Virus record (IMG/VR): IMGVR_UViG_3300025118_000119
Location: 1 to 26,102 of that record
DNA: 26,102 nt
Origin: a virus
Strand: one strand, 5' to 3'
Shown here piece after piece: positions 2,029 to 8,000 of this stretch (position 1 is its first letter; every line of letters starts with the position of its first letter). Below the pieces are notes generated by a model. The model saw only the letters and a list, made by a program, of their open reading frames with translations, did not search any database and had not been told where the DNA came from. The translations under genes and the position numbers were made by a program.

Positions 2029-5000
2029 TTATGCAAGTGCAAGTACTCTTAGATTTTTAACTCTAGGTGGTTGTGCCTGATTAGTACCAGTTCCTACAAG
2101 TTTAATACTAAAGTATTTGAAAGTAGGAAGATCATCAATATTCCATTCATAATCATGCCATACTAAATCCCCAGATAGATATGCTACTTTATCAGTCTTT
2201 GGTATAAATTTACTTGGTAAACCATTATTTTTAGCTGGATCTACAATCTGACCAGTTTGTGTTAGATTAGTATGTCCTGGGAATAATTGGTAAACTAATT
2301 CTTCATTTGGATCATCCGAAATAGCATATAATGCTCTAAGGTCACTACTTACATTAATATGACCTTCTAGAAGAATTTTAATAGAACTTGATCCTTCTTT
2401 CAAAGTAATTGGTTCTGTTGCATAAACAAATGAATTAGGATCTTGCTTTAAGGTATTAACCTTATTATCAGTAACCCAATCATCAACTGGATTGTCAATT
2501 CTATTAGAAGTAAGAATAACTCCAATTCTCTCCAAATCTACTATAGGTGAAACAGTTTCATCTGTACCAAATAAATTTAAACTCAAAGTAAATGATTTAT
2601 TATTCGGAAGAGTTACTAATGAAGCTTCTTCATTAATTTTAGAAGCAATTATTCTAGGAGTAGACATAAAATTATCACCATATAAATTTATATCTTCAAA
2701 TCCTTGATCCTGATAAGGAGCTTCAGAACCATCCACACTAGATCCAGTAACAGTTCTAATTGAACCTGTTACGTTAGTTCCTGATGGGGTCATATTTTGA
2801 ACTATAGGAGTTAAAATTTCAAATGGTATATTTTCAGTAGAAAGAGCATTAACTCCACCTGCAGATTTTGTTTCATTAAATTTAAGAACTGGAAGACTAG
2901 TTCCTACTGATCTATTCACTCCATTAGTAGAAGTATCTACTTTAATTTTATAGTAATCCATACCGATAGCATTACTTTCAGTAACATCTGTGAAATCATG
3001 ATTTGTATTAATTCTTCTCAAAGAAATACCATTTAACTCATACTTACGAAGGAAATCATCAGCACTGTGAGATAATGTTTGAGTAGAATCTACTCCTCTA
3101 ACAACACCAGTTAAAGTGTTACTAACTACCCCACTATAAGAAAGAATTTCACTTCCAATCTTAACATAACCCAAGTTAGTAGAACCAATACCGACACCTT
3201 CAAATTCAGCAAAGTCTGATGCATCATCTACAATGATAGAACCAGTTGAAGAAGAATCATAATCTGCTGCTAATTGAGTAGGAGCAACATCAGTTTCAAC
3301 ATCAGCAAAGGTTACTTTATTCTGAGTGAAATACATTCCATGATTTTTCTGATTAACCTTAATATGCAATCCATCAGTATCAGTTACAGGAGCTCCTGAT
3401 AACCAAACATTTCCTCCAGCAGCATAATTAAGTATTGTAGTACCAGCACCTGTAACATATTGAATAGTTTTACCTACCCCAGATGAAAATTCTCCTTGGA
3501 CATTATCAAGAACCCATTCATTAGTTCCTGTAACTGCAGCTATAGAGAATTTAATATTTCTTCCTAGAGAATTAATTCCAACAGATGTTATTCCAACCAC
3601 ATCACCTATAACATAACCACTACCTCCACTTAATATAGTTGCTGCAGAAGCTACTCCATTACTAATAGTAAGATTAGCAGTTGCGTTTCTACCATAACCT
3701 GTAATAGTATTAAGAGAAACATTTTGATAAGTAACAGCACCTGAAGAAGGAGTATATCCTACACCAGAATTTGTAATAGTTAAATTACCACTTGCTGTTC
3801 CTGCTGCTCCAACATATCTTCCACTAGCATTACTTCCATCTTGTTGAATTATATTTCCAAAAGTTACTCCAGTATCAGAAATAGTAGTATTAAATCCTAT
3901 TCTTATTTTATTAGATGAAATTTCAAAAGGATCTTTAAGTAAAGGACCAATATCCTCACTATATGTTAATAAAGAAGGATTGTGGAAATTAATAGATCCA
4001 GTCTCCGAAAGAAACTTTGCTTTATAAAGAGTAAATTTAAGATCTTCATATTGACTTGGATTCCAAGTTTCTCCATTTTGAGATTTAAATAATGATCCTA
4101 AAGTAGGCTGTGAACTTACGATTACCCTTTCAGATTCTGGTTTATCTACAGTTTGAATTTCAGTTTCACCCATTCTAGAAATCCAAGCAGTATATTCATT
4201 ACTGATTGATAGAAGAACTACTGAATAACTTTGATTAGGGGAAAGATAAACTGGAGCATTAAATGTAACTGTAGTAGCAACACTAGCATCATCAGAGATG
4301 TTAACGTCATCAGGATCTAAAATAATCTCTCCGAAAGGAAGTATAAGATTCTGAGGAACTCCAGCCTGCATAGGTCTTAATTGGACACTTACTGGTAAAA
4401 ACTGATCTTTACTTGCAAAATAAAGGTCTATTTTAGTTACATAAATTCCAGATGTATCTTCTATCCTAAAGGATTGTGCTAAAGGATCTTCTCCTGTAGG
4501 ACAACCGAACTTATTCTTAGGCCATGATTTGTATTGCTTTGCGGTATATCCAAACCTTTTTCTTGTATTTTTATTAAATTTTCTATTAGCGTTCATCTTC
4601 TTGACAGCATCCATCTTCTTCTGATTCCAACCTTTAGCTTCCACTTTCTTATCAAGAGATTCTTGTGATCTCTCGAGATACCATACTACCTTTTGATAAG
4701 CTTTATGTTCAAATCTACTACTTCCTGGAGTAATACCGAGCTTAGCCATATCAGATATAACCTGATTCTTCCAGTAGTGATGACCACCACCATCAGGTTT
4801 TCTGTTAAACACAGCAATATATGCTCTAGTTACAAAATCCTGTGGTGCTGGAGGTGGTGGGAGAATTATTACTGGCTTAGGAGGAATAATCTTAGGAGGA
4901 ATAATAACAACATCAACTTCAGGTGGTTTGATTGGTGGTGGTGGAGGAGAAGGAGGTAATCTATCTACTACAGCAGTAGAAGTAACACTAGTTGTTTCTC

Positions 5001-8000
5001 CTCTTGCTGTTGATGTTTCTACTCTTGTAAGAATATCTGTTGCTATATTTCTTACACTAATAATAGTTCCCTGTGTTGTATTAATACTTCCAGATGATTC
5101 GAAAACAGTGGTAGCATCAGTCTGAACATTTCCAGGAATTTGACTATTAAAGGGACTACTAGTAATTCTAAATACCTTCTTACCAGAATCAAATTTAGGA
5201 TTAGTTATCTCATTAGGATTAGGAATAAACAAAGATCCAAATACACTTCCAGAAATATCACTCCTAAGTCTTAGGTTCGAGATACTAGCTTGAGCATTAG
5301 ATGTTTGTCCTACTAATTTAAGACCTTTTTCAACATACCCAAAATAAGTATTATCTGCTTTATCAGATAAACTATCCAAATCTACATTAAGAATAGTTGA
5401 TGTTGAAGAATATAACTCAGGAACATTTACAACTGCAGAAGAAGCTGAATTGTTTACTGGAGGTACATTAGCAGAAGAAGATTGAGTTGGAACAATACTA
5501 TCAAGTAAAAGAGTAGTTCCTTTATAGAGGGGAGTAAACTGGTAATATGGGTTAGCTTTATAAACGTGTGTAGGCTCATTAAAAGGTCCTTTCTTATGAT
5601 TAGATTTGGCTACTTTAAATCTAACTATTTCTTTACCATTATTAGTCATACCTATAACAGTTTCTCCTACTGCAAAGGTTCCTGTAGTCATTGAAATTTC
5701 AAGAAGTTTAGGAATAATATACTTTGCTATATCTTGTCCATCAAAGAATGCATAAAGACCTGTATTTGGTTTTAATTTTTGAGCATCAAATTTAATATTC
5801 CTACTTCTTAGATAGGAAACTAACTCACTATTAAGTATTTTATCACCTTCATTAACAGTACTAAATGTTTCTCTAACTAATTTCTTAGTTCCTGTCCTTT
5901 TCTTTGTACCAATACGTTGTTTTGTAGTAGTGGTTCTTCTTACAAGCTCTCTTCCTTCCCATCTAGTATTAGATTTATTATCTACATGTTCATATCCAGT
6001 CCAATTCATTTTCCAAGCACCCCAAACCACTGGACTATATCCAGTTCTCTTATCAAATTCAGCAGCATTTAACTGAGAAGAAGTATTAGTATAAGTAGTA
6101 AGTTCTTTCTGTTTAGCTGTAAGTACAACTTCATCTATCCATATATCAGATTCTGGAGTTAAAAATACCTTTCCACCATAATAATTTACAAGATATGGAG
6201 TAACATTCTCAACTCTTGTAGCAAAAGGCTGGTTTAGTTGAATTACATCTTCATAATCTAAACTTAATACATTCCCAGTCTTTCTAATATTATTAGCACT
6301 ATTTAAATCTAATTGCAGATCTATTTCTGTAGTATGAGGAGAAGGTCTAAGTTCTCCATTTCTATAATCAATAGAATTTTTTACAATAGTCTCTTTAATT
6401 TGATTATCAGTATTGGAAAAATCATCTACAAAAAATCCAGATTTAAATCTATTCAACCCATCGCTATCAGTAATATTCAAATTCAAAGTATTACTTTCTA
6501 ATAAAGAAAGTGAAGTATAAAATTCTAAATTCTCAATTCTTTTTTCCAACTTATTAATATCACTCATCTGATATCTCTTATAACTTGCAAGAGTTATACT
6601 TGCATCAGTTACACTATAAAGATATGCTGGTAGTTCTATAGATGCTACTTGCAATGCTCCATCAATTGTAGCTGGGTATTCTGGATTCTCAGCAGGAGTT
6701 CCTTGCATCAATTGGAAAGTTCCATCTTTAGATAGATAAATTCTATCCAATCTAGGTAAGTAAAACTCATAACCTAATAAAATAGATTTATCAGATGCTA
6801 AAATATTTTTAGCTGAATTTCCATCTGCTGTAAAATTTCTACCTAAGAATTCAAATGGAGAACGTGAAGTTCCTGAAAAATCAGAAACTCTAGGTCTAAT
6901 ATCTAAGATATCACTTACCCTAGTATCATTAATTTCAGGTAAATCTCCATAATCAAAGTTCTTATAAGAACTAGGAGTGGTAAGATCTCCAGCGTCTGCT
7001 GCTGAGAAATATGCCGATTCAAATACAATTTTTAATTGTTTGGTGGGAGGATTGAAATTAGATTTTCTTACCAATCTAGCAAAATCATATATTGTATTCC
7101 TTTGCCCATCATCATAAGTAAATTCTTGAGTAATATTTTCTGAACCTATTATAAGAGAAGATGTAGTTGCAGTAATCCCAGATTCTTGGAAAATAATTTC
7201 TTCATTGAGTTGGAATTCATAATCATTTAACTTTATATAATTAATAGTAGAATCATCTACTCTACTGACATAAATTCCATTACACTTACTGGATTTTCCA
7301 GAAAATCTGTCTCCAATTAATAAATCTCCTGTTTTAGCTGTTGAACTATTAATAGCAATTAATGCAATTTGAGAAAAAGCTGGTTCACTAGAATTTTTAG
7401 ATTCAAGTATTCCATACACCTTCATAACATCAGGAACATTCAATGATATTTCTTCATCTTGAACTCTAGTTCCATAAACCGTACTATAGGTAAGTCCGTC
7501 ATTTAAAGTAGTAGAACCAATACCAGATTGAGAATTTTGAGACTTAGTTATAGTTAAAACATTAATCTTTTTCTTTTCCTTAATTTTTTCTGTTACATTT
7601 ACTTTACGTATTGTTGCTACTAATTTAGCACTACTATTAGCACCTAATCCGTTAATTATTAATTCAGTAGATCCTGTATTAAAATCAAACTTATCAGATG
7701 ATAAAGATTCTGTTGTTCCATCAGTCCTTATTAGAATATAATCTTCCTCATCATAAGGTAAAAATGTTTCGTGAGGACTTCCAGTAAGAATAGATCCTGT
7801 AGTACCGTCAGTAATATTAACATCAAACTGTTTTCTGATAGTAATATGAGAATTTGTTAGATCTACTGATTTAACATTATTTTTAGGAAATTGTGTATAT
7901 AAATTATTATCTTCTGAAGAATGAAAACGTGAAGATAATATCTTAAAATTAGATGGATTAATAGTAATTAAAGGTAATCCTCCTTCACAAATTCCCCCAA

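Follow-up and report, generated by a model that had tools for sequence, protein, structure and literature searches.

The minus strand of virus record IMGVR_UViG_3300025118_000119, which was analyzed in its entirety (26,102 bases; hereafter, the window), carries a T4-type baseplate gene block. It encodes gp25 (25997-25596), gp6 (25595-23601), a gp7-like protein of 4009 aa (23582-11553), gp8 (11532-9964), and, next after gp8, a DUF4815 (VrlC-like) baseplate protein of 2642 aa (9957-2029), which is adjoined by a gene with a match to the L-shaped tail fibre assembly family (1819-1430), followed by a head-tail adaptor gene (1402-569). The open reading frame of the 2642-aa protein matches Pfam DUF4815 (PF16075) at 200.1 bits against a cut-off of 30, which establishes its membership, and the protein has a baseplate homolog from Staphylococcus phage phi812 in PDB entry 9euf. 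A preliminary description of this DNA had placed the protein at the gp10 position; that label reflects gene order only (gp25, gp6, gp7-like, gp8, then the DUF4815 protein), and Pfam and PHROG profile searches found no match to a T4 gp10 family. The gp7-like protein contains a YHYH domain at aa 1213-1310 (Pfam, 70.3 bits).

The source is an uncultured marine virus, probably with a cyanobacterial host. By gp6, the closest isolates are Synechococcus and Prochlorococcus phages (52-58% identity). The window contains no host marker; cyanobacteria are considered likely hosts because, in a clade relative (the record of locus L038), the major capsid protein shares 80% identity with its Synechococcus phage counterparts. 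The T4-like records searched are fragments and yielded no psbA. In the record of another locus (L065, G025), the gp23 match is split across two overlapping frames (6509-7637), a frameshift of either the virus or the assembly.

Within the DUF4815 protein, two conserved blocks enclose a long variable linker (all coordinates on the minus strand). The upstream block, aa 1397-1637 (5047..5769), begins with PNTGLYAFFDG (5737-5769) and is 61-73% identical to nearer clade relatives and 35-46% identical to the three isolates compared. The linker starts with a variable stretch, aa 1638-1664 (4966..5046), whose identity to the compared single-module relatives, apart from L002, is 37-56%, and continues with a 42-aa polyproline/valine hinge, aa 1665-1706 (4840..4965), that opens with DRLPPSPPPP (4936-4965). 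There follow a DUF4214-like helical core, aa 1707-1770 (4648..4839), in which FVTRAYIAVFNRKPD starts at aa 1708 (4792-4836) and HHYW at aa 1726 (4771-4782), and a basic tail, aa 1771-1815 (4513..4647). The final 115 residues ahead of GEDPLAQSF comprise 26 K/R and 9 D/E, for a net charge of +17. The beta-rich downstream block, aa 1822-1993 (3979..4494), starts with GEDPLAQSF (4468-4494). PHROG profile matches end at aa 1661 and restart at aa 1823. The arrangement originally proposed, in which a hinge, a DUF4214-like domain, and a basic tail lie between two conserved blocks, is present in full, and its motif positions were correct to within ∼10 residues.

The downstream block ties the protein to a solved baseplate. 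By phmmer, window aa 1823-1992 correspond to aa 791-952 of phi812 ORF65, and Foldseek searches with the block returned 9eui (E value, 2.5e-8) and 9euf (E value, 2.2e-5). From the FDG block to DPLAQSF, phi812 has ∼78 residues, whereas the window has ∼415. Homology in both sequence and fold assigns the module to a baseplate protein, without fixing which face it occupies. In relative L028 (6001-8415), the NCBIfam choice-of-anchor R model matches the block that follows the module (residues 632-775; 31.2 bits; cut-off, 30).

Several lines of evidence identify the core as a probable, if by Pfam cut-off borderline, member of DUF4214 (PF13946). Pfam hmmscan of the whole protein matched DUF4214 at aa 1706-1737 (E value, 4.3e-4; 20.7 bits), and hmmscan of the segment alone scored 22.6 bits (E value, 1.1e-4), both below the cut-off of 23.2 bits, while a six-frame search of the record gave 26.1 bits (E value, 2.2e-7), above it. 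The HMMER match ends at position 52 of the 72-position profile, and positions 53-72 can be aligned as RSQES after an insertion. The DUF4214 core motif Y...LGR.PD..G..YW is recognizable in AYIAVFNRKPDGGGHHYW, aligned with 13 others; the window reads FNR where most of these read LGR. The motif Y...[LF].R.PD.GG..YW backs the assignment. A profile built from the window and L002 modules matched canonical-motif relatives at 93.6% over 39 columns, and in two relatives (L032 and L018) the domain at the same site scores over the Pfam cut-off. Another marine phage record has DUF4214 repeats that share this motif. Searches with the module turned up little else: tblastn against phage isolates returned nothing credible, as was also the case for two canonical DUF4214 sequences; a viral-contig scan with the module alone recovered only two contigs, both already known; and a genome-contig scan gave 19 pattern matches, of which 0 were confirmed. 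The LPS-binding N-terminal domain of RsaA (PF19198) was tried as a DUF4214 relative and rejected for want of a significant match, with hhalign against a DUF4214-type profile giving 0.2%; the RsaA fragment used as a query, identical to PDB 6t72 over 248 residues, matches only RsaA_NTD in Pfam.

Structure prediction is in keeping with this assignment. The AlphaFold2 model of the domain is all-helical, with block-mean pLDDT of 81-95 across its first 70 residues. A longer model runs, in order, through a beta block, a disordered stretch (∼aa 1625-1700), the helical domain (aa 1708-1770), weaker helices, a second disordered stretch, and a beta block; pLDDT is 82-92 in the core and mostly under 50 in the hinge. 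The overall pTM of the longer model is only 0.34, too low to place its parts relative to one another. The prediction is thus of a compact helical domain between disordered stretches, with beta-rich flanks outside. Searches by sequence and by fold yielded no solved structure resembling the domain; the fold search, which covered the PDB and viral models, gave no significant match.

To place the linker in its wider family, we compared homologous loci. We fetched 80 IMG/VR loci first and added more with three relatives as queries, leaving 94 after removal of near duplicates. Linker classes were set by ad hoc motif patterns rather than by Pfam, three loci (L130, L131, and L134) were assigned as DUF4214-like by eye, and, since the module was already present in the queries, class frequencies should not be taken as population estimates. 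In the first locus set and the isolates, the linker between the conserved blocks ranges from 25 to 367 residues. Among eight isolate loci measured (L089 and L090 left out), six have linkers of 25-65 residues without a domain, and the two longer ones likewise lack it: that of S-SCSM1 (144 residues) is proline/arginine-rich, and that of DSL-LC03 (120 residues) is lysine-rich. The cultured cyanophages S-SSM7, P-TIM68, P-RSM4, and S-B05 have the same gene order after gp8 and both flanking blocks, but, unlike the window, they join the blocks by 25-65 residues without a domain. The segment, bordered by conserved blocks, is accordingly missing from some homologs, and the isolates examined hold 25-144 residues without a domain in its place. 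Of the two outcomes named beforehand as refuting, no DUF4214 hit or a segment shared by every homolog, neither was fully obtained.

In one uncultured clade, all 49 sampled members have a DUF4214-like module at this site (6 also have a Hint domain, described below; 43 do not), and lineages outside that clade have proline-only or short linkers. Pfam missed one type in our collection, DPI...A[YFW]...YW, in those members that were tried (L003, L004, L008, L013, and L015); this type is tied to DUF4214 by profile comparison alone (80-84% probability; 70% to the window). On a tree built from the flanks alone by a quick method (89 rows; L008 left out), the DUF4214-like linker requires one state change, and the fork of the 49 rows has a support of 95; Hint requires five changes, and acidic versus basic charge requires at least four. 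Given the single change, the module looks to have been gained once and kept, with Hint coming and going, although the count of state changes by itself cannot tell gain from loss. The view that the protein gains a segment thus stands relative to the cultured phages examined and fails as a private trait of the window phage, since the whole clade has the module.

The core and its surroundings have diverged at different rates. Compared with its nearest distinct relative, L002, the window has a dN/dS of 0.06 in the core (aa 1707-1760), a value from one pair only: across 54 codons, four changes are synonymous and one is nonsynonymous. The corresponding values are 0.40 for the tail, 0.34 for the hinge, where the alignment is unsure, and 0.17-0.25 for long regions outside the linker; the hinge is 57% identical to that of L002, and the flanks are 94-97% identical. 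Judged against L002, the core is under purifying selection. When more distant relatives are compared, the core of the window stands apart as an outlier, with ∼22% identity at 68% flank identity, whereas others have 47% at 73%. We considered a module swap between clades as the source of this outlier and dropped it, since fast divergence fits as well as replacement. Third-position G+C in the core and tail is 25 versus the 13.3 expected for the DUF4815 gene (z, 3.5), a weak hint of a different origin. The basic tail, initially taken as a feature of the module, is not conserved: in the final 115 linker residues, 33 rows are strongly acidic (net charge of −8 or lower), 10, including the window, are strongly basic (+8 or higher), and 6 lie between, with cut points picked after the values had been seen.

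We propose, as a tentative reading with somewhat less than an even chance of being correct, that the segment serves the DUF4815 baseplate protein as a lineage-specific tethered accessory module with a putative role in host-surface contact. The proline-rich, largely unstructured tether would hold the small helical domain just before the beta-rich DPLAQSF block and so expose it on the baseplate, where it might contact a polysaccharide or surface protein of the host reversibly, ahead of irreversible binding. The module would then be an adhesin of an auxiliary kind, distinct from the tail fibres, and a strong charge, whether positive or negative, would be in line with adaptation to differing surface chemistries. 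Domain identity is the sole basis for this functional reading. One paper regards DUF4214 of segmented filamentous bacteria as a likely surface anchor (PMC12780176), and another describes it in proteins linked to surface layers (PMC11970703); display away from the baseplate and host-polymer binding, as first suggested, would fit these accounts of bacterial surface proteins. The window shares the core motif with the DUF4214 of bacterial surface and exported proteins and differs from it in being a single divergent copy in a phage baseplate protein, with a polyproline tether, a charged tail, and extra residues inserted after YW.

The main rival, which we rate as possible but rather unlikely, is docking within the virion, in which the tethered domain would secure a further part of the tail, either a fibre or a neighboring wedge, and its charge would be matched to that partner. 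Contact with another virion part is equally possible for such a module, the L-shaped tail fibre assembly family gene lies alongside, and the module is kept in every sampled clade member. Moreover, the charge of the final 115 residues is strong in most rows, whether acidic or basic, and has switched at least four times on the tree, as coevolution with a partner could give; cultured relatives nevertheless manage without the module. It is improbable that the linker is merely a tolerated spacer, a disordered loop of variable length that acquired a domain of little use. The wide spread in linker length (25 to more than 360 residues) and the proline-only linkers of some lineages would suit such a loop, but the core dN/dS lies below that of the rest of the protein (again for one pair and 54 codons), and all 49 sampled clade members kept the module. 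Least probable is that the core resembles DUF4214 only by chance, through a short motif: the hmmscan scores just under the cut-off, the truncated profile match, and a similar motif in butyrophilin SPRY domains (a likeness limited to that short motif and presumably due to chance) leave room for it, but the six-frame score, the profile match, and the same-site domains of L032 and L018 speak against it, and the all-helical model is unlike SPRY domains, which are beta-sandwiches.

The segment marks a baseplate site, besides the tail fibres, where uncultured ocean phages bear an extra domain akin to those of bacterial surface proteins. If the proposed host binding is true, it would account for part of host recognition in uncultured phages, and the module, as a small soluble domain, is open to direct expression and assay.

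In six relatives (L024, L025, L028, L029, L095, and L096), the same linker also carries a Hint (intein-like) domain ahead of the DUF4214-like domain; the window has none. Pfam PT-HINT scored 28.6 bits in L028, over the cut-off of 27.7, and 25.7 bits in L029, under it, and the other four were recognized through their similarity to these two in a tblastn-confirmed scan and then read from the sequence. All eight distinct Hint sequences found by script retain Cys1, the block-B His, and the C-terminal His-Asn, and end in SHN followed by Lys. The +1 residue is thus Lys, not Cys, Ser, or Thr; these domains are known here from sequence only. Intein-like domains without a +1 nucleophile reportedly exist (Dassa 2004, in the reference list of PMC4031507). 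The linker end is basic in four of the six Hint-bearing rows, a coincidence that is a mere lead because the rows are related. A broader and more doubtful possibility is that the linker is a site of changeable tethered baseplate modules in marine T4-like phages. These would be DUF4214-like domains, either one or two and differing in the sign of their charge, joined in some lineages by a Hint domain with the potential to cleave or cross-link the baseplate protein once it has been assembled.

Hint domains of the same kind are also present in further proline-rich phage proteins, which lack the DPLAQSF block (L098, L099, and L102-L107); those of L102-L106 precede a DUF4214 motif. The record of L103 (G030), which also holds L111-L113, comes from an uncultured phage. 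This 80.5-kb contig ends in a psbA-type gene and has 11 DUF4214 matches across several proteins, one of which combines proline-rich stretches, Hint, and DUF4214.
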